Shown here: positions 47,910 to 63,527 of the stretch, in pieces
Layout of the letters: the number at the start of each line of letters is the position of its first letter
How positions within the stretch are numbered: the stretch's first letter is position 1
Assembly (NCBI GenBank): GCA_017621815.1
Contig: JAGASK010000013.1
Coordinates: 148,298 to 212,297, forward strand
Origin: Lachnospiraceae bacterium
Lineage (GTDB): Bacteria > Bacillota > Clostridia > Lachnospirales > Lachnospiraceae
DNA: 64,000 bases
Direction: 5' to 3'
The notes under the pieces: generated by a model
Databases searched by the model: none
What the model saw: only the letters and a program-made list of their open reading frames with translations
Told to the model about the DNA's origin: nothing
Made by a program: the position numbers and the translations under genes

Positions 47910-47960
47910 ACAGATTTGCGCCTATACAGAAAGTGCGCAGAATATGAAAGAGGAAAAAGC

Positions 47961-49511
47961 ATGGCAGTAAAGACATTTGCGGCAATTGATGTAGGTTCTT
48001 ATGAACTTTCCATGAAAATATTTGAAGTATCAAGAAATAAGGGAATGAAGGAAATTGACCACATCAGGCATGAAATTGATATGGGAACGGAAAGCTACAC
48101 TACAGGAAAGCTCAGCTATGAGCGTGTAGAAGAGCTTTGCCGGATTTTATGTGAATTTAAGGATATCATGAAAGCTTACCAGACAGACGATTATGTGGCA
48201 TATGGCACCAGCGCTGTCAGGGAAAGTGAAAATACGGCGATTCTGCTCAATCAGATTGAAATAAGAACGGGAATTCATATTGAGGTTTTAAGTAATTCCG
48301 AGCAGCGTTTTCTGGATTATAAATCCATTGCCTTTCAGGGTGAGGGGTTTGATAAAATTATCGAGAACGGAACTGCTATTGTGGATATCGGAGGCGGCAG
48401 CATTCAGATTTCGCTCTTTGATAAGGATACTCTTGTTTCCACACAGAATATGAAGCTGGGAGTTTTACGTCTGCAGGAAAGACTGAATCATCTGGATGCC
48501 AGCGTGGGGCGGTATGATACACTGATAGATGAACTGGTGGATTCTCAGATGATGGTGTATAAAAAGCTGTATCTGAAAGACAGGGAAATTAAGAACATAA
48601 TTGTGGTGGACGATTACATTTCCGCTATGCTGCGCAAAAAGAGCATTAACCAGGAAATGAAGGGATATGCCGGAAAAGAGCTGTTTGACAGGTTTGAAAA
48701 AGAATATCATACAAAGGGGCTTTTGGAACTGGCAAAACGCTGGGACATGCCGGAAGAGAATATGCCCAGAACATATATATCCCTGGTGATGCTGAAAAGA
48801 ATTATGGAAACCATGGGGGCAGAGCTTATCTGGGCTCCGGGCGTAACCCTTTGTGACGGTATTGCATATGAGTATGCGGAGAAGAATAAGATAATAACAT
48901 CCTCCCATGATTTTGAACAGGATATCATTGCCTGTGCGCAGAATATCAGCAAGCGCTACCGGGGAAGCAAAAAGAGAAGCGAAACCCTGGAGCAGATTGC
49001 CCTGACTATTTTTGACAGCACAAGAAAGATTCACGGTCTTGGAAAGCGGGAAAGGCTTCTTTTGCAGCTATCCACTATTCTGCATGACTGCGGCAAATAT
49101 ATCAGTATGGCAACTTTGGGAGAATGTTCTTACAGTATTATCATGGCTACGGAGATTATCGGGCTGTCTCACAGGGAAAGGGAAATCGTTGCCAATGTGG
49201 TTAAGTACAATCATCTGGAATTTGAGTATTATGAGGAAATGGGAAGATACAGTACATTAGACCAGGATTCTTATTTAATCATAGCGAAACTGACAGCAAT
49301 TCTGCGGCTCTCCAACGGCCTTGACAGAAGTCATAAGCAGAAATTCAAAAATGTAAAAACTTCCCTGAAGGATGATAAGCTGATTATTACAGTGGATACC
49401 AATGAGGACATTACTCTTGAAAAAGGTCTGTTCGGTGCCAGGGCGGCTTTCTTTCAGGAGGTATACAATGTGCGTCCTGTCATCAGGCAGAAGCGCATGA
49501 TTGGAGGTTGA
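47961..49511 (+). CDS. ppx: Ppx/GppA-type phosphatase with HD domain
   Basis: The 516-residue protein has the Ppx/GppA actin-like fold (FAAIDVGSYELSMKIFEV, YGTSAVRESENT, AIVDIGGGSIQISLFD) at 1-310 and an HD-type domain at about 320-516 (LLQLSTILHDCGKYISM). It is an exopolyphosphatase or pppGpp phosphatase; the direct neighbour ppk1 favours polyphosphate. ATG 47961 follows AGAGGAAAAAG. The C-terminal part could bind phosphate chains or RNA. Confidence 0.92.
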   Translation: MAVKTFAAIDVGSYELSMKIFEVSRNKGMKEIDHIRHEIDMGTESYTTGKLSYERVEELCRILCEFKDIMKAYQTDDYVAYGTSAVRESENTAILLNQIEIRTGIHIEVLSNSEQRFLDYKSIAFQGEGFDKIIENGTAIVDIGGGSIQISLFDKDTLVSTQNMKLGVLRLQERLNHLDASVGRYDTLIDELVDSQMMVYKKLYLKDREIKNIIVVDDYISAMLRKKSINQEMKGYAGKELFDRFEKEYHTKGLLELAKRWDMPEENMPRTYISLVMLKRIMETMGAELIWAPGVTLCDGIAYEYAEKNKIITSSHDFEQDIIACAQNISKRYRGSKKRSETLEQIALTIFDSTRKIHGLGKRERLLLQLSTILHDCGKYISMATLGECSYSIIMATEIIGLSHREREIVANVVKYNHLEFEYYEEMGRYSTLDQDSYLIIAKLTAILRLSNGLDRSHKQKFKNVKTSLKDDKLIITVDTNEDITLEKGLFGARAAFFQEVYNVRPVIRQKRMIGG

Positions 49512-49516
49512 GATAT

Positions 49517-51646
49517 ATGGATAATTTGAAATATGCAGATCCCGGCTTTTATACAAACAGGGAATTAAGCTGGGTGCTCTTTGATAAAAGGGTATTAAGC
49601 GAAGCGCAGGATAAACAAAATCCGCTTTTTGAAAGGCTGAAATTTTTGAGTATTTCCGCCTCTAATCTGGATGAGTTTTTCATGGTAAGAGTGGCATCGC
49701 TGAAGGACATGGTGAATGCGGGTTATGAAAAGCCCGATATTGCGGGCATGACGCCGAAAGAACAGCTTAAGGAGCTGAACATAGTTACCCATGAACTGGT
49801 AAGCCAGCAGTATGCTGTTTATAACCGCGCCCTTTTGCCTCAGCTTTTGCAAAACGGGCTTAAGGTGATTGAAAAGCATGAAGATTTGACGGAAAAGGAA
49901 GCTGCCTACGTGGATAAGTTTTATGAGGAAAATGTATATCCCGTACTGACGCCCATGGCAGTGGATTCTTCAAGACCTTTTCCGCTGATTAGAAATAAAT
50001 CCCTGAATATAGGTGCGCTGGTGAAAAAGAAGGGCGGGGAAGGAGAACTGGAATTTGCTACCGTTCAGGTACCCAGCGTGCTTCCCAGAATCGTGCAGGT
50101 GCCTGTGGAAGCAGGGGAAGAAAAAGCAGTGATTCTTCTGGAAGAAATTATCGAAAGAAATATACAAAAACTGTTTTTGAATTATGATATTGTATGCTCC
50201 TATCCTTTTAGGATTATGAGAAATGCAGACTTTTCCATTGAAGAAGATGAGGCTGAGGATTTACTTAAGGAAATTGAAAGACAGCTGAAGAAAAGACAGT
50301 GGGGGCAGGCAATAAGACTGGAAGTGGAAGAGGGCATTGATAAGAGGCTTCTGAATATTATCAAAGAAGAACTTTCTATCGGTGATGAAGATATTTACCG
50401 GATCGGGGGGCCTTTGGATTTAACCTTTTTGATGAAAATGTACGGTCTTCCGGGTTTTGAGCATTTAAAGGAAAAAGGATATGCTGCTCCCCAGCAGGTG
50501 CCTGAGCTTCCCGGGGACTGTGACATTTTTGAACAGATCAGAAAGGGAGATATCCTGCTGCATCATCCCTATGAAACCTTTACTCCCGTAGTTGATTTTA
50601 TCAGGCAGGCGGCAAGGGATAAGGATGTTCTTGCAATTAAACAGACACTTTACCGTGTCAGCGGCAATTCCCCCATTATTGCGGCATTGGCGCAGGCGGC
50701 TGAAAACGGCAAGCAGGTGTCAGTACTGGTGGAACTGAAGGCAAGATTTGATGAAGAAAATAATATCGTCTGGGCAAAAATGCTTGAAAAGGCAGGCTGT
50801 CATGTTATTTACGGGCTTGTGGGACTGAAGACTCACAGTAAGATTACTCTTGTAGTAAGAAGGGAAGAAGACGGCATCAGAAGATATGTGCATCTGGGAA
50901 CCGGAAATTACAATGATGCCACTGCCAAGCTGTATACGGATGTAGGGCTTTTGACCTGTTCGCCGTCTATCGGGGAAGATGCAACTGCGGTATTTAATAT
51001 GCTTTCAGGATATTCAGAGCCGCTTTCCTGGAATAAGCTGTCACTGGCGCCTTTGTGGCTGAAGGACAGATTCCTGCATTTGATAAACAGGGAAAAGAAA
51101 AATGCCATGGCAGGCAGGGAAGGTCATATTATTGCCAAGGTTAACAGTCTTTGCGATAAGAATATTATAGAAGCCCTTTATGAAGCGGCGGCTGAAGGAG
51201 TAAAAATCGAATTAATAGTAAGAGGAATCTGCTGTTTGAAAACGGGCCTTCCGGGAATCGGGAATAATATAACCGTGCGTTCCATTGTAGGAAATTTTCT
51301 GGAGCACTGCAGAATTTTCTATTTTGCCAATGACGGTAAGCCGGAGTATTATTGTGCAAGCGCTGACTGGATGCCGAGAAATCTGGAGAGACGTGTGGAA
51401 ATTATGTTTCCTGTGGAAAAGCCGGAGCTGAGGGAAAAACTGATGCATATTTTAACCATGCAGCTTAAGGATACGGTGAAAGCACATATATTGATGCCCG
51501 ATGGAAGCTATGAAAAGGTGGATAGGAGAGGAAAGGGAATTATAAATGCCCAGCTGGAATTCTGCAATGAAGCGGTTCATGCGGCAAAGACAGGCGGCGA
51601 AGTGATTAATCACAGAGTTTTTATTCCCGAAATGCATCATGATTAA
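49517..51646 (+). CDS. ppk1: Polyphosphate kinase 1
   Basis: The 709-residue enzyme makes polyphosphate from ATP reversibly. FYTNRELSWVLFDKRVL opens it; SVLVELKARFDEENN, the phospho-His region GLKTHSKITLVVRRE, RYVHLGTGNYNDATAKLYTD and the second half PLD-like region IELIVRGICCL are present. The length is usual. GGAGG precedes ATG 49517. It follows Ppx/GppA after 5 bp and overlaps maf by 8 bp. Confidence 0.97.
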   Translation: MDNLKYADPGFYTNRELSWVLFDKRVLSEAQDKQNPLFERLKFLSISASNLDEFFMVRVASLKDMVNAGYEKPDIAGMTPKEQLKELNIVTHELVSQQYAVYNRALLPQLLQNGLKVIEKHEDLTEKEAAYVDKFYEENVYPVLTPMAVDSSRPFPLIRNKSLNIGALVKKKGGEGELEFATVQVPSVLPRIVQVPVEAGEEKAVILLEEIIERNIQKLFLNYDIVCSYPFRIMRNADFSIEEDEAEDLLKEIERQLKKRQWGQAIRLEVEEGIDKRLLNIIKEELSIGDEDIYRIGGPLDLTFLMKMYGLPGFEHLKEKGYAAPQQVPELPGDCDIFEQIRKGDILLHHPYETFTPVVDFIRQAARDKDVLAIKQTLYRVSGNSPIIAALAQAAENGKQVSVLVELKARFDEENNIVWAKMLEKAGCHVIYGLVGLKTHSKITLVVRREEDGIRRYVHLGTGNYNDATAKLYTDVGLLTCSPSIGEDATAVFNMLSGYSEPLSWNKLSLAPLWLKDRFLHLINREKKNAMAGREGHIIAKVNSLCDKNIIEALYEAAAEGVKIELIVRGICCLKTGLPGIGNNITVRSIVGNFLEHCRIFYFANDGKPEYYCASADWMPRNLERRVEIMFPVEKPELREKLMHILTMQLKDTVKAHILMPDGSYEKVDRRGKGIINAQLEFCNEAVHAAKTGGEVINHRVFIPEMHHD

Positions 51647-52235
51647 AAATAATAAAAAAATAATTCTGGCAAGCGCTTCTCCAAGGAGAAGAGAGCTGCT
51701 TGCACAGATTGGCATGGAATTTCAGGTGCTGCCAAGCGGCGCCGAGGAAAAAACAGGAAACTGCAGCCCTTCCGAAATGGTTAAGGAACTGTCTCACCTG
51801 AAAGCCCTTGATATTTTTCAGAAGCTTTCAGGCGGGGAACAGGCACAGTCGCTTGTAATAGGCGCAGATACGGTAGTTGCCCTGGATAATAATATTATGG
51901 GCAAGCCGGGAAATAAAGAAAATGCGGTTAAAATGCTTTCTGACCTTCAGGGCAGAACCCATCAGGTTTATACCGGGGTTACCCTGATCTGGCAGGAAGA
52001 TAAAAGCATGGTGCAAAGGGAAATTTCTTTTTATGAGGAAACTTCCGTAACTATGTTTCCCATGACGCCGGAGGAAATTGAAGCGTATGTTGCTACCGGA
52101 GAGCCCATGGATAAGGCAGGAGCCTATGGCATTCAGGGAAAATGCGCCGCTTATATTAAAGGCATAAGCGGCGATTACAATAATGTAGTAGGGCTTCCCA
52201 TAGGAAGGCTTTATCAGGAGATGAAGAAAATCTGA
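51639..52235 (+). CDS. maf: Maf-type nucleotide pyrophosphatase
   Basis: The 198-residue protein has ILASASPRRRELLAQIGMEF at the start, VIGADTVVALDN, the Thr-His of RTHQVYTGVTL, and GKCAAYIKGISGDYNNVVGLP. It hydrolyses non-canonical nucleotides such as dTTP/UTP or modified bases. It overlaps ppk1, and its 3' end overlaps the end of the convergent GH42 gene by 22 bp. Confidence 0.96.
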   Translation: MIKNNKKIILASASPRRRELLAQIGMEFQVLPSGAEEKTGNCSPSEMVKELSHLKALDIFQKLSGGEQAQSLVIGADTVVALDNNIMGKPGNKENAVKMLSDLQGRTHQVYTGVTLIWQEDKSMVQREISFYEETSVTMFPMTPEEIEAYVATGEPMDKAGAYGIQGKCAAYIKGISGDYNNVVGLPIGRLYQEMKKI

Positions 52236-54268
52236 ACATCCCAGGGGTAAAGCGCAATTTTTTCATTCAGCCCGGTTTCTTTTTCTTCAAAGAGGGAGAC
52301 CGCCTTTGAAGCTGAAAAAGAGGCTGCCGGTAAGTATTCCGAAAGACTGAACTGCTGTACGCTGTCTGAATAGTTAAATACATAAACAACAGTATTTCCC
52401 TGTTTGTCGGTACCCGTTTTGCAAATGACGGGGAAACGGCAGCAGGGAATTTCCATATTCATTTTTTTCAATATCATTCCCAGAAATGTTTCCAGAATTT
52501 CACTGCTGAAGTAACATCCGATATAAGCAGCGCTTCCTTTTCCGTAAGGATGGAAGGTAATTGCACTGTAGTCCTGATATGCATAATAATCGTATCCGGC
52601 AAGGGTAAGGGTTTCCGGGCCGGAAGGAATAAGAAGTTCCATAAAATCTGTAACAGGGCAGGCTTCCCCGTCGGGAAGAACCGAACTGCATAGAGAAATT
52701 CTGCCGGGAACCGTAAACTGGTCATATGTAATTCCAAAGCAGTCCGTCAGGCCGAAAGGCAGGCTGTCCGCATATACTTCAAGATATTCATTGGATACGG
52801 CAGTTCGGAAGGTGCTTATCAGATGTCCTCCCTCTTTTACATAGCAATCCAGTTTCCGGGTGACGGCGGCTTCCGCAGAATACAGTCCGGGTAAAAGGAT
52901 AAGCTTATATTTTTCCTGTAATTCTCTTTCCGTTAAAGAAAGGATGTCTTCCGGATAAATAAAATCACAGGTGATATTCATGCGGTAAAGAGCGTCAAAA
53001 AGCCAGCGCATGATAGTGTTATAATCAAGGTTTTCGCCAATCGGAAAATAGGAAAGCCCTGTAAGCGCATCATTGTTCAGAAGCATGGCAATTTTGGCAT
53101 CGGGAGCATAATTCATTAAGCAGCCGCAGCGGGCAAATTCTTCCCCGATTCTGCAAACTTCCCGGTAGGTTTCATTTTCTTTCAGATTATGGCTTAAGAT
53201 TCCTTTCCAATAGGTTTCAAAAGAATGGTGAATGGAATGCCAGTGCCAGTACATGACAGAATGTGCTCCTGCGGCAAGGTGGCTGTAAGCCTGCAGGCGA
53301 AGCTGTCCCGGAAGGGGGAGCCAGCCGGGGTTGCCCTGGGCCTGGGTTTCCAAAACAAGATAGGGCGCTTTTTTTATGGAACGGCCGATGGCCCCTCCCA
53401 TAGATATTTCAGCGCCGGTCAAATGAGAAGCGGAAGGATGGTAAATATCCACACCGGCAACGGTAAGAGCCTTAGCGGCTTCCCGCTGATTCACTTCGGG
53501 CTGCAGCCCTACGGAATGGTCTGTCCATGCGAAATCGAAATTCTGGGTGATGAATTGTTCTTCACTTGCATATTCACGGACGATGGAAGCCTGCCATGAC
53601 AAAAATTCCGTAACAAGAAGACGCTGAAATTTTTTAAATTCTCCGCCAAGGCTGGCGTTTATGGTGCCCCGGACATCGGGAAAATCCTCCCAGCTGTTAA
53701 TGCGGTTGCTCCAGTAGGTAAGTCCGAAGGCACGGTTTAATTCATCAGTGGTACTAAATTTCTTCTTTAAATATTCTATGAATTTTTTCTGTACGCCGGG
53801 ACCTGCAGTGTCGTAGGACTTTGTTTCATTGTCAAGCTGAAAGCCAATGACCCGGGGATGGGAAGCGCATTCTTCCATAAGCTTTCTGATGATTCTTTCT
53901 GCGTGAAAAAGATAGCCCGGATGTGTGATATCCATATTCTGGCGGTGTCCGTAAAGGGAAGGACCGCTGTGGGTAAGGGCTAAAATATCAGGATATTTTT
54001 TTACAAGCCAGCAGGGAACGGCATAAGTGGGAGTTCCGATTATTACTTTCATATCATAAGTTCCGGCTGCATCAAGTACCTGATGCAGAATCGTAAAGTC
54101 AAAAACACCGTCAGCCGGTTCCCAGGTACTCCAGGAAGATTCGGCAATACGGATAGTATTAAGACCTGCGCGTTTCATCATCTGCATGTCGGTATCAATT
54201 CTTTCATAAGGCATATATTCAGCGTAATATGCTGCCCCGTAAATAATTTCATCTTTCTTTCGGCTCAT
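52214..54268 (-). CDS. GH42 beta-galactosidase
   Basis: The 684-residue enzyme has no signal peptide and is cytoplasmic. It starts with IIYGAAYYAEYMPYERIDTD and has the acid/base Glu148 in FQLDNET and the nucleophile Glu307 in YLVLETQAQG. The order is TIM barrel (1-385), trimerisation domain (about 390-600) and a C-terminal beta domain. Such enzymes release galactose from beta-galacto-oligosaccharides, as GanA does for galactan fragments in Bacillus subtilis. It is divergent from the importer operon at 54708 and shares the regulatory region with it. AAAAGGAAA precedes the ATG. Confidence 0.93.
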   Translation of the reverse strand: MSRKKDEIIYGAAYYAEYMPYERIDTDMQMMKRAGLNTIRIAESSWSTWEPADGVFDFTILHQVLDAAGTYDMKVIIGTPTYAVPCWLVKKYPDILALTHSGPSLYGHRQNMDITHPGYLFHAERIIRKLMEECASHPRVIGFQLDNETKSYDTAGPGVQKKFIEYLKKKFSTTDELNRAFGLTYWSNRINSWEDFPDVRGTINASLGGEFKKFQRLLVTEFLSWQASIVREYASEEQFITQNFDFAWTDHSVGLQPEVNQREAAKALTVAGVDIYHPSASHLTGAEISMGGAIGRSIKKAPYLVLETQAQGNPGWLPLPGQLRLQAYSHLAAGAHSVMYWHWHSIHHSFETYWKGILSHNLKENETYREVCRIGEEFARCGCLMNYAPDAKIAMLLNNDALTGLSYFPIGENLDYNTIMRWLFDALYRMNITCDFIYPEDILSLTERELQEKYKLILLPGLYSAEAAVTRKLDCYVKEGGHLISTFRTAVSNEYLEVYADSLPFGLTDCFGITYDQFTVPGRISLCSSVLPDGEACPVTDFMELLIPSGPETLTLAGYDYYAYQDYSAITFHPYGKGSAAYIGCYFSSEILETFLGMILKKMNMEIPCCRFPVICKTGTDKQGNTVVYVFNYSDSVQQFSLSEYLPAASFSASKAVSLFEEKETGLNEKIALYPWDVQIFFIS

Positions 54269-54707: not shown

Positions 54708-56033
54708 ATGAAAAAGAAATTGTTGGCATCATTGCTTACCGTTTCCATGGTAGCAGCTATGCTCACAGGATGCGGCGGCTCTAAGGAAGAAGCTCCCGCA
54801 AACACAACCGAAACTACAGAAGCAGCAGGCGGGGCAGAAAGCACAGACGCAGCAGAAAGCACAGATGCTGCTGACCCTGTAGCAAATCTGATTGCAGCTA
54901 CAACAGATACTGTAGCGCTTACTGTATGGGCTTCTGAAGAAGACCAGACTTTAACAACAGAACTTCTTGAGAAATTCAAGGCTCAGTACCCTGACGTAAC
55001 ATTCGATATTAAATTAGGTTCAGAATCAGAATCAACAGCTAAGGATACAATCCTTGCAGACGTTGAAGCAGCAGCAGACGTATTCGCATTCGCTGATGAC
55101 CAGATTAACGAGCTGGTTGCAGCAGGCGCGCTTCAGCCCGTATCCGCTACGTACACATATGATGTAGCAGGCGAAAACGTTGCCGGCGCTGTAGAGGCAG
55201 CAACCGTAAACGGAACTTTATATGCATATCCTATGACAGCAGATAACGGATATTTCATGTTCTATGATGCATCTGTATTTACAGAGGATGATGTTCAGTC
55301 TCTTGAAAAGATGATTGAAGTTGCAGGCGCAGCAGGCAAAAAGGTTGCTATGGATATTTCCAACGGCTGGTATATTTACTCTTTCTTCCAGGGCGCTGGT
55401 TATGATTTAACATTAAATGATGACGGCGTAACCAATTCCTGTTCATGGAATGCAGCAGGCGCTACAGATGTAGCTCAGGCTATTATTGATTTGTGCGGAA
55501 CAGGCGTGCTTGTAGATTTAGGAGATGAAGAAATGGCTACAGCAATCGCAGAAGGTACTGTAGTTGCTGCTGTTAACGGTACCTGGAGAGCTGAGACAGC
55601 TTCAGATGCATGGGGTGAGAACTATGCAGCAACCAAGCTTCCCACTTTTGAAGTAGCAGAAGAAGCTAAGCAGATGTCTTCTTATTCAGGTTATAAATTA
55701 ATCGGTGTAAATCCTTACTCCGCTAATGTTGGCTGGTCTATGCTGCTTGCTGAATATTTAACAAATGCTGATTCTCAGGCAGCAAGATTTGAAGCAAGAG
55801 GCCTTGGCCCTGCTAACTCTACAGTAGCAGCAAGTTCTGCAGTTCAGGAAAATCCTGCAATCGCAGCTCTGGCAGCACAGGCAGCATATGCAACACCTCA
55901 GCGTGTAGGCGGCAACTTCTGGACACCCGCTGAAACATTAGGACAGATTTTAGCATCCGGCAATCCTGACGGAACTGACCTTCAGACACTGCTTGATACA
56001 GCAGTAGAAGGTATTACTGCTCCTGTTCAATAA
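54708..56033 (+). CDS. Galacto-oligosaccharide-type ABC substrate-binding lipoprotein (MalE/GanS-like)
   Basis: The 441-residue lipoprotein has the lipobox MLTGC with Cys22, a Thr/Glu/Ala-rich linker (about 25-60) and a family 1 solute-binding fold (LTVWASEEDQTLTTELLEKF, ADVFAFADDQINELVAAGAL, NGTLYAYPMTADNGYFMFY). It would bind an oligosaccharide outside the cell for the MalF/MalG-type permeases that follow. The neighbours (GH42, GH53) point to beta-1,4-galacto-oligosaccharides. Codons here are biased to a few (GCA, ACA, GAA), as in highly expressed genes. Confidence 0.93.
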   Translation: MKKKLLASLLTVSMVAAMLTGCGGSKEEAPANTTETTEAAGGAESTDAAESTDAADPVANLIAATTDTVALTVWASEEDQTLTTELLEKFKAQYPDVTFDIKLGSESESTAKDTILADVEAAADVFAFADDQINELVAAGALQPVSATYTYDVAGENVAGAVEAATVNGTLYAYPMTADNGYFMFYDASVFTEDDVQSLEKMIEVAGAAGKKVAMDISNGWYIYSFFQGAGYDLTLNDDGVTNSCSWNAAGATDVAQAIIDLCGTGVLVDLGDEEMATAIAEGTVVAAVNGTWRAETASDAWGENYAATKLPTFEVAEEAKQMSSYSGYKLIGVNPYSANVGWSMLLAEYLTNADSQAARFEARGLGPANSTVAASSAVQENPAIAALAAQAAYATPQRVGGNFWTPAETLGQILASGNPDGTDLQTLLDTAVEGITAPVQ

Positions 56034-56168: not shown

Positions 56169-57596
56169 ATGAAGAATAAATTAAATTCAATTGGAAATTA
56201 TTTTAAAGATTTCGGAACCGCCCTCGCAAAAGGTGATATATGGGTAAAATTATCCCTGGTTTGGATGGGGGCAGGATACGCTGCCAGAAAGCAGATAATC
56301 AATGCGGTTATCATGACCTTGCTGGAAGCTGTTTTTGTAATTATGTGTGTTTTTTATGCAGCGCCGAATCTCGCAAAATTCGGTACGCTGGGTACTGTTC
56401 AGTTTGAACAGGTTTTTGACCCGTTGACTTTGACAAGCACAGTGAATGATTATGATAATTCATTTTTGATTTTGCTGAATTCTATTATTGCATTATTCTT
56501 AATCGTTGTTTTCATTTTGGTATATATATCGAACATTAAAACTGTTTACAATCTTCAAAAACGTAAAGAAGCAGGAAAACATATCAATACATTCCGTGAA
56601 GATGTACGCGCCATGTTCAATGAAAGGTTTCATATTACATTACTGACGCTTCCGTGTATTGGTATCATACTCATGAACGTGCTTCCTATTCTGGTGCTGA
56701 TTGCAATTGCATTTACCAATTATGACCAGCAGCATATGCCGCCCAGCGCGCTGTTTACCTGGGTAGGCTGGACTAATTTCAAGAGCCTGTTTACTAATTC
56801 AACTACCATTACTTTCGGTTATTCCTTTGGAAAAGTTCTGATATGGACACTGGAATGGGCAGTACTTGCAACATTTACTACGTATATCGGCGGTATATTA
56901 CTTGCCAAATTTATTAACAACAAAGCAACTAAATGGCCTAAATTCTGGAGGACGCTGTTTATTATTGCCATTGCAGTTCCCCAGTTTGTAACATTGCTTT
57001 TGGTACGTAACTTTTTTGCTGATTCAGGAATTGTAAATACGATTTGCGCCAATATCGGTTTGACGGATTTCCTTAAGAAAATCGGACTGGTTGGCTCAAA
57101 TCTTACATATATTCCGTTTTTGACAAATCCCACATGGGCAAAGGTAATGATTGTTCTTATTAATATCTGGGTAGGTGTTCCTTATCAGATGCTGATTGCA
57201 ACCGGTGTTCTCATGAATATTCCAGAGGATCAGATTGAAAGTGCAAGAATCGACGGCGCTAACAGCTTCCAGATTTTTGTAAAAATTACAATGCCTTATA
57301 TGCTGTTTGTAACAGGTCCCAGCTTAATAACAGACTTTGTAAAGAATATCAATAACTTTAACGTTATTTATCTGCTCACACAGGATGTATATGTAACCTC
57401 TGACCAGATGCTGGCGAACTCCAATGCCAAGGAAATAGACCTTTTGGTAACATGGCTGTTCAGGCTGACAAATGAATACTATAACTACAAGATGGCATCT
57501 GTAATCGGTATCTGTGTATTCATTATCTGTGCGGCATTTACACTAATAACCTTTACCAGGACAATTAAAGGAGATAAGGAGGATCAGTTTAGATAA
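56169..57596 (+). CDS. ABC transporter permease, MalF/GanP-like
   Basis: The 475-residue permease has an N-terminal extension with two extra helices (about residues 45-75 and 95-120) before the six-helix core, as in MalF and GanP. The EAA loop is IESARIDGANSFQIF. AGAGGGG precedes the ATG. The stop overlaps the ATG of the next gene by one base. No ATP-binding gene is in the operon; a shared MsmK-type ATPase is presumed. Confidence 0.94.
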   Translation: MKNKLNSIGNYFKDFGTALAKGDIWVKLSLVWMGAGYAARKQIINAVIMTLLEAVFVIMCVFYAAPNLAKFGTLGTVQFEQVFDPLTLTSTVNDYDNSFLILLNSIIALFLIVVFILVYISNIKTVYNLQKRKEAGKHINTFREDVRAMFNERFHITLLTLPCIGIILMNVLPILVLIAIAFTNYDQQHMPPSALFTWVGWTNFKSLFTNSTTITFGYSFGKVLIWTLEWAVLATFTTYIGGILLAKFINNKATKWPKFWRTLFIIAIAVPQFVTLLLVRNFFADSGIVNTICANIGLTDFLKKIGLVGSNLTYIPFLTNPTWAKVMIVLINIWVGVPYQMLIATGVLMNIPEDQIESARIDGANSFQIFVKITMPYMLFVTGPSLITDFVKNINNFNVIYLLTQDVYVTSDQMLANSNAKEIDLLVTWLFRLTNEYYNYKMASVIGICVFIICAAFTLITFTRTIKGDKEDQFR

Positions 57597-58438
57597 TGAA
57601 AAAACAAGTGAGATTTGTACTCAGACATGTTATTTTACTTTTACTCGCCGTATTTTGGCTGGTTCCCATTGTATGGCTGGTGGCCACCTCCTTTAGCGGT
57701 TATAAGGGTATCAATACGGCGCACTTTTTCCCGGAGACCTGGTCCTTTGACAACTATCTGGCTCTGTTTTTAAGACCCGACTCGGTTGTGCAGTATAAAG
57801 CCTGGTTTATGAATACACTGGTAATCGCAATTTTTACCTGTATTATTTCCACCATTTTTGTATTGATGGTAGCTTATACCATGAGCTGTCTGCGTTTTAA
57901 GGGCAGAAAAGGGTTAATGAGTTTCGGCATTATTTTAAATATGTTTCCCGGTGTTTTATCCATGATTGCTGTATATTTTATTCTGAAGTCACTGGGACTT
58001 ACCAACAGTCATGTGGGTATGATTATAGTATATTCGGCTGCTTCAGGACTTGGCTATCTGATAGCAAAAGGCTTTATGGATACGATTTCCATTTCCTTAA
58101 GGGAAGCAGCGTGGCTGGAAGGCGCTTCTGAAGCAAAGATTTTCTGGAAGATTATTCTTCCTTTGTCAAAGCCCATTATTGTTTATACGGTTATCAGTTC
58201 GTTCCTGGTACCATGGGGAGACTTTGTATTTGCAAAACTGATTTTAAATTCCGGTATTTCAGCAGATTGGACTGTTGCAATCGGTCTTTATAATATGCTG
58301 AATAAATCCCTGATTAATAAATACTTCTCTATCTTCTGCGCAGGCGGTGTGGTAGTATCAATTCCGATTTCTATCCTGTTTGTAATCATGCAGAAGTTCT
58401 ATGTGGAAGGAATTACCGGAGGTTCCGTCAAGGGTTAA
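57596..58438 (+). CDS. ABC transporter permease, MalG/GanQ-like
   Basis: The 280-residue permease has six helices, the start LLAVFWLVPIVWLVATSFS, and the EAA loop REAAWLEGASEAKIF, with Trp-Leu-Glu where most relatives have Arg-Ile-Asp. The C-terminal FVIMQKFYVEGITGGSVKG is typical of MalG. It forms the channel with the MalF-like protein. The LacI gene begins 1 bp after its stop. Confidence 0.94.
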   Translation: MKKQVRFVLRHVILLLLAVFWLVPIVWLVATSFSGYKGINTAHFFPETWSFDNYLALFLRPDSVVQYKAWFMNTLVIAIFTCIISTIFVLMVAYTMSCLRFKGRKGLMSFGIILNMFPGVLSMIAVYFILKSLGLTNSHVGMIIVYSAASGLGYLIAKGFMDTISISLREAAWLEGASEAKIFWKIILPLSKPIIVYTVISSFLVPWGDFVFAKLILNSGISADWTVAIGLYNMLNKSLINKYFSIFCAGGVVVSIPISILFVIMQKFYVEGITGGSVKG

Positions 58439-58439
58439 G

Positions 58440-59441
58440 ATGGAGACAAAAAGACTGACAATTGATGACATAGCCAGGGAATTAAATATATCAAAAACCA
58501 CGGTTTCCAGAGCTATTTCCGGTAAGGGGAGGATAGGTCAGGAAACCAGGGATAAGGTACTTAGGTATATTAAAGAAAACAATTATAAGCCAAGCGCCAT
58601 TGCAAAAGGGCTGGCACAATCCAGAACGTTTAATATCTGCTTTGTTATGCCGGGAGATTACAGTATTGTGGATTTGCCCTTTTATCAGGGGTTTTTGTGG
58701 GGCATCAGCAATACTGCTTCCAAGGCGGATTATGATGTGATTATTTCCATGGTAACGGAAAAGGATATATCTCAGTTAGTAAGATTAATTGAGAATCAGA
58801 AGGTGGACGGTATTATTCTGGGGCGTACGCTGGAAGAGGATAAGGCCGAGGAATATTTGCTGAGTAAGGAAATTCCTTTTGTTACAGCAGGTTCTTCAAA
58901 GGACGCTTCGGTGATTCAGGTGGATAATGATCACCGCAGCGCATGCCGGGAGCTTACTCTGGTGCTTCTTCGCAAGAAGATGAAAAAAATGGCTTTAGTG
59001 GGCGGCAATATGGGATATATTGTCAATCAGAACCGATTGGCAGGATACAGGGAGGCGTATCTTGAGTTTGGTGCCGCTATAGACAGCAGCCTGGTTTATC
59101 TCAATCTGGTTAACGAAAACGACGTTGATAAAGTGGTGGATGAACTGATTGAAAAAGATGTGGACTGTATTGTATGTATGGACGATTATATCTGCGGCTG
59201 TGTGCTTGGAAAGCTTAGAAAAGAGCATGTGCGGATACCGGAGGACATAAAAGTGGCATCCTTTTACAACAGTATTTTGCTGGAGAACAGCCAGTCTGTC
59301 ATTACCTCCCTGCAGTTCAACGTAACTGAGATGGCGGCTGTATGCTGTAACACACTGCTTTCCCAGATTGATAAAAAAGAAGTTCCGGGAAAGACCCTTC
59401 TTGGCTATGAAGTAATTATACGCGAGTCTACACAGGCATAA
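58440..59441 (+). CDS. LacI-family transcription regulator
   Basis: The 333-residue repressor has an N-terminal helix-turn-helix (TIDDIARELNISKTTVSRAI, about 6-25), the hinge NYKPSAIAKGLAQSR and a periplasmic-binding-protein-like sugar domain. It resembles GanR and similar repressors of galactan use. It is encoded inside the operon after the permeases, so it probably controls the divergent region 54269-54707. ATG 58440 is chosen with AAGGG just upstream; the frame is open to 58401 in malG-like sequence. Confidence 0.94.
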   Translation: METKRLTIDDIARELNISKTTVSRAISGKGRIGQETRDKVLRYIKENNYKPSAIAKGLAQSRTFNICFVMPGDYSIVDLPFYQGFLWGISNTASKADYDVIISMVTEKDISQLVRLIENQKVDGIILGRTLEEDKAEEYLLSKEIPFVTAGSSKDASVIQVDNDHRSACRELTLVLLRKKMKKMALVGGNMGYIVNQNRLAGYREAYLEFGAAIDSSLVYLNLVNENDVDKVVDELIEKDVDCIVCMDDYICGCVLGKLRKEHVRIPEDIKVASFYNSILLENSQSVITSLQFNVTEMAAVCCNTLLSQIDKKEVPGKTLLGYEVIIRESTQA

Positions 59442-59475: not shown

Positions 59476-61329
59476 ATGGACAAATTTGTTGTTAACATTA
59501 TTCATCGTCCGGAAATGGTTCCCGAATATGCGGAAAAAGTAACCGGACATGGAAAAGAAGAGGATATCGGCAGAAAGGCGCTGCTGACAGAATCTCTTGA
59601 TATTTTTAAATTCCAGCAGGAAACGGCTCATAAAAACGGTTTGAAAACAACGATTCAGATGACTTATGCCAGCCTCTTTAATGAAGAAGCAATTTCCCTT
59701 GCAAAGGAACATCATGAAAAATACGGTGATGAGATTTCATTATCCCTGCTTGGACTTCCCTGTAAAGAATTCAGGGAAAAATACAAAACAAAGGATTTCT
59801 GTATCTGGATGTTTTCCATGGAAGATAAGAAATCCATTGTAGATGATGTATTTGGAAAATTTTATGATACTTTCGGTTTTTATCCTGAATCCACAGGTTC
59901 CTATTATATGGATGCCGAGCTGACCAATTATATCAAGGAAAAGTATCCTATGGTAAAATGCGCGGTTGCTACCTGCTGGGAAGAAGGACCCAAGGCATAT
60001 CATACCTGTAACAATTCCTGGTATACTTTAATGGACGGAGGCCCATGGAATCCATGGATTCCCAGTAAGCAGAACATCCATGCGCCGGCAGCAAATGAGG
60101 AAGAGGACAGCGGTATTGTTGCAATTCCCCATCTTTCAAGGGATTTGCTTGCATGCTATGACGGAAACGGTTCCAATTTCGGAACCCATCCCCAGAATGT
60201 ACTGCGCGGTATGATTTATGATACAAAGACATGGGAATTCCCTTATTTGTACAATTTGATTGACCAGTACCGTGACCTGGAAAAATATAACAACGGTTAT
60301 GCTTACAATATGATGTTTGTAGGACCCGGCTGGTTAAACAAGATGGGACGCTGGGAAGCCCCTTATGAGCTCCTTAAGAAATCCTATGAAGACGGCATGG
60401 CTTATTATGGTCAGTTAAAGAAGGAAGGCAAGCTTTCTGACATGACCATGGCTGAATTCGCTGATTATTTCCGTGAGAAGAAGACCTATACGGAGCCTGA
60501 GTGCGCACTTTGGAGAGATATTCTTTATGGTTCGGATAAGCAGCTGTTCTGGTATTGTGACCCCTATATGAGAGCCTGCATCAATATGAATCAGGGCGGT
60601 GCAATCGTAGATCTTCGTCCTTATGCGGCTAAGCTGAAATGGGAAGTTGGTATCGGAACGCCGCACGTACAGGATGCTTCTTATCCTTTCCTGATTCAGG
60701 AAAAATACAGGGCAGGTTACTTTACCCACTATGCAGGAGAAGGTACTGTCAGAAGTGCGAAGCTGACTTATAATGGTGAAGAGGTAGACCTTTGCCTTTG
60801 CCGTACTCATGCAAAATTCAGCGAAGAGGTTATTGAGGACGGTAAGAAAAAGAGAATCCTCACCCTGGAGCCGGTAGACATAGAATTTTATGATTTGACC
60901 GTAAAGCTTCAGACAAGAGTTATCTTTACAGAAGGAAACGCTGATATCGAAATGGAAAGAACTGTTCTTTCCATGAGCAAACCTGATGCAGAGGTTGAGT
61001 TAAACGAATATATGGTAGCATGTTATGGTACCACGGAATATCCGGAGGATATGACTTCTCTTACTTTGACCTGTAAGGGCAAAGGGGAAGAAAAGAAGAT
61101 TGATTATGCATATAAATGCAGAGAAGCGGAAATAGAAGGTGCAGCATGCGTAGAAGCGGTGATTCCTCCTATTGAAACAAAGGTTTCCATGCGGGCATCA
61201 GATGAAAAGGCAACAGGCTATATCAGAGAAGGTTATGCATTTTCACCTATGTTCACGTTAGGCTATAAGACGACACTGAAGGATAAGGAGGTTGTTTCCA
61301 CATGGCTCAAGCTGGAAAAGGCAAATTAA
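59476..61329 (+). CDS. Unrecognised 617-residue protein of the galactan locus, possible new glycoside-active enzyme
   Basis: The protein has no signal peptide and no family that I recognise with confidence. The N-terminal third begins DKFVVNIIHRPEMVPEY and contains FGKFYDTFGFYPESTGSYYM and a Trp/His-rich stretch (CNNSWYTLMDGGPWNPWIP), which looks like a NodB/GH57-type barrel. The middle (about 300-380) is helical; from about 380 to the end it is beta-rich, like the sandwich domain of GH38/GH57 enzymes. Conserved-looking acidic residues and His10 could be catalytic. It lies between the LacI regulator and GH53, so a role in galacto-oligosaccharide or arabino-galactan breakdown is likely. The fold assignment is inference only. 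Confidence 0.75.
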   Translation: MDKFVVNIIHRPEMVPEYAEKVTGHGKEEDIGRKALLTESLDIFKFQQETAHKNGLKTTIQMTYASLFNEEAISLAKEHHEKYGDEISLSLLGLPCKEFREKYKTKDFCIWMFSMEDKKSIVDDVFGKFYDTFGFYPESTGSYYMDAELTNYIKEKYPMVKCAVATCWEEGPKAYHTCNNSWYTLMDGGPWNPWIPSKQNIHAPAANEEEDSGIVAIPHLSRDLLACYDGNGSNFGTHPQNVLRGMIYDTKTWEFPYLYNLIDQYRDLEKYNNGYAYNMMFVGPGWLNKMGRWEAPYELLKKSYEDGMAYYGQLKKEGKLSDMTMAEFADYFREKKTYTEPECALWRDILYGSDKQLFWYCDPYMRACINMNQGGAIVDLRPYAAKLKWEVGIGTPHVQDASYPFLIQEKYRAGYFTHYAGEGTVRSAKLTYNGEEVDLCLCRTHAKFSEEVIEDGKKKRILTLEPVDIEFYDLTVKLQTRVIFTEGNADIEMERTVLSMSKPDAEVELNEYMVACYGTTEYPEDMTSLTLTCKGKGEEKKIDYAYKCREAEIEGAACVEAVIPPIETKVSMRASDEKATGYIREGYAFSPMFTLGYKTTLKDKEVVSTWLKLEKAN

Positions 61330-61520
61330 ATTTCAGGTGTCCTTCCTGCTTTATGAGGGATTTGGACATTGATATGTTCTATGACAAAGATAAGAAGGAA
61401 TACTACTGTATGAGATGCCAGTATGTCGGAACAGAAGAGGATGTACTGGAAAAGAACGAGATGGTAAGATTCCGCTATCGTGATATGTACAAGCGTTTTA
61501 CAAAATTTGATTTTGAGTAG
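61302..61520 (+). CDS. Small zinc-ribbon protein
   Basis: This 72-residue protein overlaps the end of the 617-residue gene by 28 bp and has AAGGAGG before its ATG. It has FRCPSCFMRDLDID and YYCMRCQYVGTEED, two C-x2-C pairs of a zinc ribbon, then a basic-aromatic tail (RFRYRDMYKRFTKFDF). It may be a nucleic-acid-binding or regulatory factor. Its place inside a sugar operon is unusual. Confidence 0.78.
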   Translation: MAQAGKGKLNFRCPSCFMRDLDIDMFYDKDKKEYYCMRCQYVGTEEDVLEKNEMVRFRYRDMYKRFTKFDFE

Positions 61521-61629: not shown

Positions 61630-62736
61630 ATGAAATATTATAAAGGAATGGATATTTCCACTTTATTAGAGGTGGAAAAATGCGGAGGCAAATTCTATGA
61701 TGGCGGAAAGGAAGGAGAACTGCTCACCATTTTAAAAAGCTATGATGTAAATGCAGTGCGTATCCGGCTTTGGAATGACCCTTATTCAGAAGAGGGAGAG
61801 CCTTACGGCGCAGGAACCAATGATTTTAATTCCGTATTGGAGCTTTCAAGAAGAGCAAAGGAAAAAGGACTTGACATTTTACTGGATTATCATTACAGTG
61901 ATTTCTGGGCAGACCCCGGAAAGCAGTTTATTCCCAAGGCATGGAGAGGATATTCCGTGGATGAACTGGAACAGGCTGTTTATGACTATACCAGGGATAC
62001 CTTGCTCATTCTTAAAAAAGAGGACTTGCTGCCCTGTATGGTTCAGGTGGGAAATGAGCTTACAAACGGACTGCTCTGGCCCTATGGAAAAACTCCCAAT
62101 TACGATAATATTGCCCGCTTTGTGAAAGCCGGAGTCAGGGCTGTCAGGGAAGTGTCCGACAAGATAAAAGTGATGATTCACCTGGATAACGGCGGAAACA
62201 ATGAGCTTTACAGGGAATGGTTTGATAATTTTGTAAAGCGCGGCGGGGATTTTGATATTATAGGGCTTTCTTATTATCCTTTCTGGCACGGCACCTTTGA
62301 TATGCTGGAAAATAATATGAAGGATATTGCAGTGCGCTATGGGAAAGAATTGATTATTGCCGAGGTTTCCATGGGATATACCATGGAGGATTATGCATCC
62401 TATGAAAAACTGGCGCCTGCGCAGCGGAAGGGCATGGCCACCAGACAGGAACTGGCAGATAAAATAGAATATCCTATGACAAAAGAAGGGCAGACTGCAT
62501 TTATGAATGAATTGTTCCACAGGATTGCCAAAGTGCCGGAAAATAAAGGCAGGGGATATTTTTACTGGGAGCCTGCATGGATTCCCGTACCCGGCAGCGG
62601 ATGGGCTACGGAAAGCTCGCTTAAATATATAGAGGACAAAGGCCCCTGCGGCAATGAGTGGGCCAATCAGGCATTATTTGATTATGAAGGAAATGCGCTT
62701 CCGGCACTTGGCGCAGTGAGGGATTATAAACCATGA
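61630..62736 (+). CDS. GH53 endo-beta-1,4-galactanase, cytoplasmic form
   Basis: The 368-residue enzyme has the GH53 barrel with YYKGMDISTLLEVEKCGGKF, VNAVRIRLWNDPYSEEG, the acid/base Glu143 in QVGNELTNGLLWPYG and the nucleophile Glu245 in IIAEVSMGYT. It hydrolyses beta-1,4-galactan inside the chain. Known GH53 enzymes are secreted; this one starts with MKYYKGMDIS directly and has no signal peptide, and the upstream open frame (to 61480) adds no signal. It should act on imported oligosaccharides. AGAGGAG precedes ATG 61630. It overlaps the HAD gene by four bases. Confidence 0.93.
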   Translation: MKYYKGMDISTLLEVEKCGGKFYDGGKEGELLTILKSYDVNAVRIRLWNDPYSEEGEPYGAGTNDFNSVLELSRRAKEKGLDILLDYHYSDFWADPGKQFIPKAWRGYSVDELEQAVYDYTRDTLLILKKEDLLPCMVQVGNELTNGLLWPYGKTPNYDNIARFVKAGVRAVREVSDKIKVMIHLDNGGNNELYREWFDNFVKRGGDFDIIGLSYYPFWHGTFDMLENNMKDIAVRYGKELIIAEVSMGYTMEDYASYEKLAPAQRKGMATRQELADKIEYPMTKEGQTAFMNELFHRIAKVPENKGRGYFYWEPAWIPVPGSGWATESSLKYIEDKGPCGNEWANQALFDYEGNALPALGAVRDYKP

Positions 62737-63527
62737 TAAAACTGATAGCATCGGATATTGACGGCACTTTAATAAAGGATTCCACACCGGATTTATATCC
62801 GGAGATGGTCCGGGCAGTAAAGGCATTGAAGGAGAAGGGCATTTTGTTTTGTGCTGCCAGCGGCAGACAATATGAAAGTGTCCGGAATGTATTCCGCGAG
62901 ATAAAAGAGAATGACATTGCCTATATTGTGGAAAACGGCGCCCATATCCGGTATCAGGGTAAAAATATTTCCGTTACGCCCATGAAAAGACAATATGCTG
63001 AAGAAATTATGGAAATGCTCCGTTCCTATTACGGCAGCTGCGAAACGGTTATTTCCACGCCCGCAGGAAGTCTCGTGGAAAGTACGAATGAAGAATTTGT
63101 GGATTTGCTTACTTACGGTTATCACAATGCTTTCAGAAGAGTAAAGGATGTGCTGGCTGAAGATGCCGAGATTATTAAAATAGCGGTTTACAGGAAAAAC
63201 AGTATCAGGGAGCTTGGTGAAAATGTTTTTATTCCTGCCTGGCAGAATAAGGTAAAGGCCTGTATGGCAGGTGAGGAATGGGTGGACTTTATGGATGCTT
63301 CCGTGGATAAGGGAAACGGCCTTCGTATTTTACAGGAGTATTTGGGCATTAAAAAGGAAGAAACCATGGCCTTCGGTGATAACAATAATGATGTTGGGAT
63401 GATGCTTGCGGCAGGAGAAAGCTATGCCGTGGAAACTGCAGTGGATGAGGTGAAAAGGGCTGCAGGAAGAATCTGTCCCGGATATACGAAAAAAGGCGTT
63501 TATGAAATTATAAAAAATTTGATATAG
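62733..63527 (+). CDS. Cof-type HAD-superfamily phosphatase
   Basis: The 264-residue protein has the nucleophile DIDGTL at residues 8-13, a type II cap domain and the GDNNNDVGM motif for Mg binding. Such enzymes dephosphorylate sugar phosphates, nucleotides or FMN. It overlaps the GH53 gene by four bases, so it is the last gene of the galactan operon and may handle a phosphorylated sugar of that pathway. Confidence 0.93.
   Translation: MIKLIASDIDGTLIKDSTPDLYPEMVRAVKALKEKGILFCAASGRQYESVRNVFREIKENDIAYIVENGAHIRYQGKNISVTPMKRQYAEEIMEMLRSYYGSCETVISTPAGSLVESTNEEFVDLLTYGYHNAFRRVKDVLAEDAEIIKIAVYRKNSIRELGENVFIPAWQNKVKACMAGEEWVDFMDASVDKGNGLRILQEYLGIKKEETMAFGDNNNDVGMMLAAGESYAVETAVDEVKRAAGRICPGYTKKGVYEIIKNLI

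Follow-up and report, generated by a model that had tools for sequence, protein, structure and literature searches.

An overlapping gene pair for a predicted barrel-supersandwich protein and a zinc-ribbon-like protein in sugar-utilization loci of Clostridia

We examined a stretch of 64,000 nucleotides (the window) from contig JAGASK010000013.1 of the Lachnospiraceae bacterium assembly GCA_017621815.1, in which a galactan-utilization locus carries, between the genes for a LacI-type regulator and a glycoside hydrolase family 53 (GH53) galactanase, an open reading frame (ORF) whose product we term X617 (Table 1). The sequence-only reading of this DNA had singled it out as an unrecognised protein lacking a signal peptide. 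Its extent and place in the locus are as that reading had them, inspection by eye (not a signal-peptide program) finds no hydrophobic stretch at the N-terminus, and searches recover zero Pfam families at E<=1, zero NCBIfam families at E<=0.1, and two sequence matches in the PDB (E 0.35 and 0.64) that we regard as chance. X617 does not stand by itself: it is one half of a fixed two-gene unit, the other half being an overlapping gene, ZR, which had been missed.

Table 1. Features of the X617-ZR locus, in window coordinates
Feature	Position	Strand	Remarks
GH42 beta-galactosidase, divergent	52214..54268	-	PF02449, 1.8e-76
ABC (ATP-binding cassette) transporter solute-binding protein	54708..56033	+	SBP_bac_8 (Pfam)
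ABC permease 1	56169..57596	+	BPD_transp_1 (Pfam)
ABC permease 2	57596..58438	+	BPD_transp_1 (Pfam)
LacI-type regulator	58401..59441	+	best NCBIfam match TIGR01481, 4.5e-46, below the model's cut-off
X617	59476..61329	+	617 codons, ATG start; predicted glycoside hydrolase/deacetylase barrel (~1-340) and C-terminal beta-supersandwich (~341-617)
Shine-Dalgarno of ZR, AAGGAGG	61285..61291	+	inside the X617 coding sequence; read from the sequence
ZR	61302..61520	+	72 amino acids, CxxC...CxxC, zinc-ribbon-like; 28-nt overlap with the 3' end of X617
GH53 endo-beta-1,4-galactanase	61630..62736	+	PF07745, 7.6e-120; no signal peptide seen

X617 is no chance ORF, because a search of genome contigs confirmed at least 568 encoded relatives, 80 of which, with 81-96% identity across residues 1-617 or 4-617, were kept; together with the window, whose genome holds a single copy, these constitute a set of 81 close loci, fetched because X617 is present in them. 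At all 81 the ATG of ZR and the end of X617 fall at the same place, and a Shine-Dalgarno-like match lies within 20 nt upstream of ZR. The ZR product has 70-75 residues in 79 loci, the other two running off the contig, and the four cysteines of its two CxxC pairs are invariant in all 79 copies long enough for alignment; the CxxC...CxxC pattern recurs in 10 loci of a wider comparison of the overlap. Beyond the overlap, differences from the window copy number 751, 457 and 2390 at codon positions 1, 2 and 3 respectively, and this accumulation at the third position indicates that purifying selection acts on ZR as a protein. A programmed frameshift fusing X617 with ZR was considered, but at every close locus ZR comes with an ATG and a Shine-Dalgarno-like match of its own, which led us to drop the idea; in the family and class search tables we noticed no ORF joining the two. 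None of the named zinc-ribbon models matches ZR above its cut-off, the best being NF047912 (2.8e-4, 20.7 bits against a cut-off of 37), and its zinc-ribbon matches in Pfam are likewise all below cut-off.

In a sample of 397 genomes of the family, 57 showed a match to X617. The main type comprises 53 of these; set aside were the divergent copy of G427 (40% identity), the distant relatives in G400 and G448, and a weak match in G764, which was discarded as its ORF reads, by inspection, like an isoleucyl-tRNA synthetase. The search for ZR covered 200 family genomes, a subset of the 397 judging by the genome handles, and found it in 27, which over the shared range are the same genomes that hold X617, G427 included; G400 and G448 lie within this range and are devoid of ZR. 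Nowhere was ZR seen without at least part of X617. In G740, the X617 match is confined to the last 263 residues next to an intact ZR, and as the LacI gene is also split over three frames (L123:7425-9512), this locus looks decayed. Ten genomes matched in a sample of 148 from the class, namely the window's own, six strong ones with seven loci (L198-L204, of which L203 and L204 are nearly alike), and three weak, distant ones. ZR follows X617 in all seven strong loci and in L111, such that the pair is kept in eight loci beyond the close set, with 34-76% identity where aligned. Counting the stop codon, the overlap is 28 nt in L198, L199, L117 and L123, 31 nt in L111, L200 and L201, and 19 nt in L202; in L203/L204, where the automatic pick was an upstream ATG, an internal Met is the likely start of ZR, giving an overlap of about 34 nt.

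ZR is absent at E<=1 from the fetched pieces of the distant relatives L112-L115, of the dropped match L116, and of a Parabacteroides distasonis locus, L118. X617 was found in 0 of 397 other genomes of the phylum, few of them from the same class, and a profile of the superfamily in 0 of 298. Viral contigs yielded no relative when queried with X617 and with one distant relative, and plasmids a single weak match in a P. distasonis polysaccharide utilization locus; on these grounds we reject a mobile or phage origin. A 7.6-kb unannotated entry labelled Bacteriophage sp. (MT837148.1, 4095-5687) does contain a relative 57% identical to the P. distasonis protein, and may be bacterial DNA.

The structure model of X617 predicts a barrel followed by a C-terminal beta-supersandwich, bearing out, together with fold comparison, the barrel-like N-terminal part and C-terminal beta region discerned by the sequence-only reading. 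The predicted barrel, seven-stranded as in GH57, belongs to a fold common to GH57, deacetylases and the structure 3LM3, whereas the supersandwich is common to mutarotases and several GH families, with alpha-galactosidases, GH38 enzymes and cellobiose phosphorylase, among others, in the Foldseek lists. Thus, the likeness to GH57 and NodB-type enzymes suggested earlier holds for the fold; however, hhalign detects no sequence-level kinship to GH57, GH38 or deacetylases, with thin comparators (one GH57-like, ten GH38-like, six deacetylase-like and one DUF3863 protein, the first three groups being drawn from PF03065 matches and named by reading). Nor did a close match to a characterised non-carbohydrate family emerge.

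The nearest solved relative is 3LM3 itself (BDI_3119 of P. distasonis, DUF3863/PF12979), titled a putative glycoside hydrolase/deacetylase and of no known function, to which X617 has a detectable relation in both sequence and fold, placing it in a wider DUF3863 superfamily. The Pfam model itself, PF12979, does not match X617 at E<=1 and reaches 0.039, below cut-off, in the distant relative L115, while X617-type sequences alone attain just 21% with the DUF3863 comparator in hhalign. 3LM3 carries DUF3864, and none of the supersandwich models is matched there; the structure is missing from the top 50 Foldseek matches of the full-length X617 model because the C-terminal domain fills the list. Unlike X617, the P. 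distasonis relative has no ZR nearby. On the P. distasonis plasmid NZ_OY725801.1 (L118:7587-10710), a distant X617 relative shares an 11-nt overlap with a DUF3863 gene; the surrounding locus is of SusC/SusD type and contains two GH2-type genes.

GH57 enzymes, compared for example through the Aquifex amylopullulanase 9kyq and the 4-alpha-glucanotransferase 1k1x, use for catalysis a Glu that follows strand 4 and an Asp that follows strand 7. X617 has no match to PF03065 at E<=1 (0.083, below cut-off, in the relative L201), and hhalign stays under 1% with the one GH57-like protein and could not align the two families; by eye, D146 of X617 comes close to where L154 has this Glu, and L202 has Ser in place of D146. 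The GH38 alpha-mannosidases share with X617 the general plan of a barrel and beta domains, and Bl_Man38 entries occur among the Foldseek matches of the full-length model. Their N-terminal HxD zinc motif is found within residues 1-60 in 0 of 8 X617-type members, and hhalign gives 0.2-0.3%. The profile tests (Pfam, NCBIfam and hhalign) hence led us to reject filing X617 under GH57, GH38, CE4 or DUF3863. We take as chance a 30-residue match of the A5 profile to designed 'Bagel' proteins (6.3e-05 at best), and one of PF07929 in L202 (7e-4, below cut-off).

Comparison of eight X617-type proteins, the window's and seven at 34-76% identity, reveals the invariant residues H10, E86, C167, E169, E170, H219, R222, D223, E298, E327 and D379. 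In a set that brings in five distant relatives (A2), E86, D146, C167 and D223 are fixed in 9/9, and position 169 is Glu or Asp. Predicted barrel strands precede C167, D146 (strand 4), E169/E170 (strand 5) and D223 (strand 6). E169/E170, D223 and D146 would accordingly lie near strand ends in the manner of active-site residues and are our candidates for catalysis, an assignment that is provisional because model confidence is low in that region.

A same-strand GH53 match lies within the fetched stretch at 73 of the 81 close loci. In five of the other eight, the sequence to the right of X617 is shorter than 1.7 kb; in L028 it extends for 2.6 kb, and GH42 comes next. L022 and L027 have no GH53 within the 10 kb covered on either flank; in these two, genes for an ABC transporter and a GH13 protein adjoin LacI-X617-ZR. 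By ORF clusters, whose counts are lower bounds owing to greedy ORF picking and whose names come from one representative each, GH53, GH42 or GH2 LacZ is present at 75/81 loci, with GH42 at 36, LacZ at 20, and the LacI cluster at 58. Across the family sample, GH53 scores above cut-off in 45 of the 53 main-type genomes against 44 of 344 others (Fisher 2.9e-26, relatedness ignored); G657, the only other sampled genome of the window's genus, has neither X617 nor GH53. The eight main-type loci left after these 45 (L117, L119-L125) show ABC permease matches beside X617 in all but L123, along with GH42 in L120, L123 and L124; L117 and L122 carry GH2 LacZ, and L121 has a melibiase-like gene. In L119 (10259-16885), the gene after X617-ZR encodes 2208 residues that include FIVAR, Ig-like and F5/8 type C domains, and L125 has an ORF of similar length in that position.

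Farther afield, the neighbours comprise GH53, GH35, GH2 and L-arabinose genes (L198), GH53 and ABC genes (L199), GH36-like or melibiase-like genes (L201, L202), ABC genes and an AraC-type regulator (L203), and a GH29 alpha-L-fucosidase (L111); one X617-ZR locus holds a gene of the mannitol dehydrogenase family, and L200 has no obvious sugar enzyme nearby. In L202 (8322-17798), the pair adjoins a raffinose-synthase-type gene and genes for a glycyl-radical enzyme and its radical-SAM partner, a second such pair following by eye. Given these varied neighbours, the common theme, with exceptions, is the use of galactose-type glycosides. The galactan setting originally assigned to X617 is upheld by the GH53/GH42 context and the co-occurrence with GH53, although the unit is not limited to galactan; most homologues examined are in sugar loci.

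We posit, with a confidence that is evenly balanced, that X617 and ZR act as one unit, a cytoplasmic carbohydrate-active enzyme directed at imported galactosides. In this proposal X617 would be the catalytic chain and ZR its small zinc-ribbon partner in a complex, with the gene overlap probably coupling their translation such that both are made in matched amounts. The neighbouring ABC transporter would import galactosides, upon which X617-ZR might act alongside the intracellular GH53 and GH42 or GH2 enzymes, most likely by hydrolysis or phosphorolysis, between which the evidence does not discriminate, of a galacto-oligosaccharide or other galactose-containing linkage that these enzymes handle poorly. 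Several observations weigh against this proposal. No galactose gene is in view at L022, L027, L200 or the fucosidase locus L111; loci that already have GH53 and GH42 or GH2 do not obviously need a further galactosidase; and the GH53 association statistic leaves out the relatedness of the genomes. At the residue level, H10, E170, H219 and R222 change in the distant relatives, D146 is replaced in one of the eight members, and the low-confidence part of the model (~165-290) is exactly where the candidate residues lie.

The fold itself raises the alternative that X617-ZR is a deacylase or deacetylase resembling the CE4/NodB enzymes (e.g. 3qbu, 1z7a), stripping acyl groups from imported oligosaccharides. 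CE4 polysaccharide deacetylases bear DD and HxxxH-type metal motifs; the first 120 residues of the window's X617 contain no DD, and neither HxxxH nor HxxxxH occurs in the protein. Isolated cases of DD or HxxxxH turn up in single relatives, at differing places, and the absence of these motifs in the window protein lowers the standing of this idea. Moreover, no Pfam deacetylase family matches X617, which differs from CE4/NodB proteins in its large C-terminal domain and ZR partner; we hold this alternative to be very unlikely. The resemblance of the C-terminal half to galactose mutarotases, and the occurrence of the unit with differing sugars, including the fucosidase and mannitol-dehydrogenase-family loci, could instead point to action on a released sugar or sugar phosphate, as by an epimerase, isomerase or mutarotase-like enzyme, rather than on a glycosidic bond. 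As the same supersandwich recurs in the glycoside-cleaving enzymes listed above, and such steps are partly covered already by GalT (19/81), GalK (8/81) and GalE-like (7/81) genes, this too appears quite unlikely.

A further option is that the unit is a non-enzymatic sugar sensor or regulator, with a sugar-binding barrel and a zinc ribbon that would touch nucleic acid or protein. What ZR weakly resembles are indeed nucleic-acid-type zinc ribbons such as that of TFIIB (1pft, E 0.098), and LacI stands alone beside X617-ZR in L022, L025, L027, L032 and L073, although contig ends truncate L025, L032 and L073. Nevertheless, every ZR match is below cut-off, most loci already have a regulator of the LacI or AraC type, and X617 has many fixed acidic residues in a fold most often found in enzymes, rendering a sensor unlikely. 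Returning to the proposed galactoside-active enzyme, we suggest more tentatively, and with some doubt, that X617-ZR could be the founding member of a two-protein family of glycoside-cleaving enzymes, in which a translationally coupled zinc-ribbon subunit is essential to a GH57/38-like barrel that acts across Clostridia on several imported galactose-type glycosides.

We found no description of X617, DUF3863, 3LM3 or BDI_3119 in the titles and abstract openings of the open-access papers searched. GH53-containing loci have been reported in Roseburia, and the X617 gene is not discussed in the part of that report consulted (PMC5320581). At the close loci GH53 is a regular companion of X617, GH42 and LacZ being variable, yet no family model names X617. 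What the present analysis contributes beyond the sequence-only reading is a constant zinc-ribbon partner, a broader range of sugar contexts, and a connection to 3LM3/DUF3863. Should X617 prove an enzyme, it would represent an overlooked step in how Clostridia of the gut and rumen use plant galactan, and the 3LM3/DUF3863 fold would gain a function open to testing. Having a zinc-ribbon protein as a constant partner would be unusual among carbohydrate enzymes, and X617 expressed alone may fail without ZR.

Elsewhere in the window, the LacI-type regulator possibly starts about 40 nt further downstream than 58401, and the GH53 start was taken as the Met at 61630, the longest ORF beginning at 61480 (GTG). 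Almost without gap after GH53 comes a gene (62733-63527) reading, by eye, like a HAD-type phosphatase; as its cluster is present at 5 loci, it does not belong regularly to the X617-ZR unit. The upstream ORFs at 47916-52235 have the look of genes for an exopolyphosphatase, a polyphosphate kinase and Maf.
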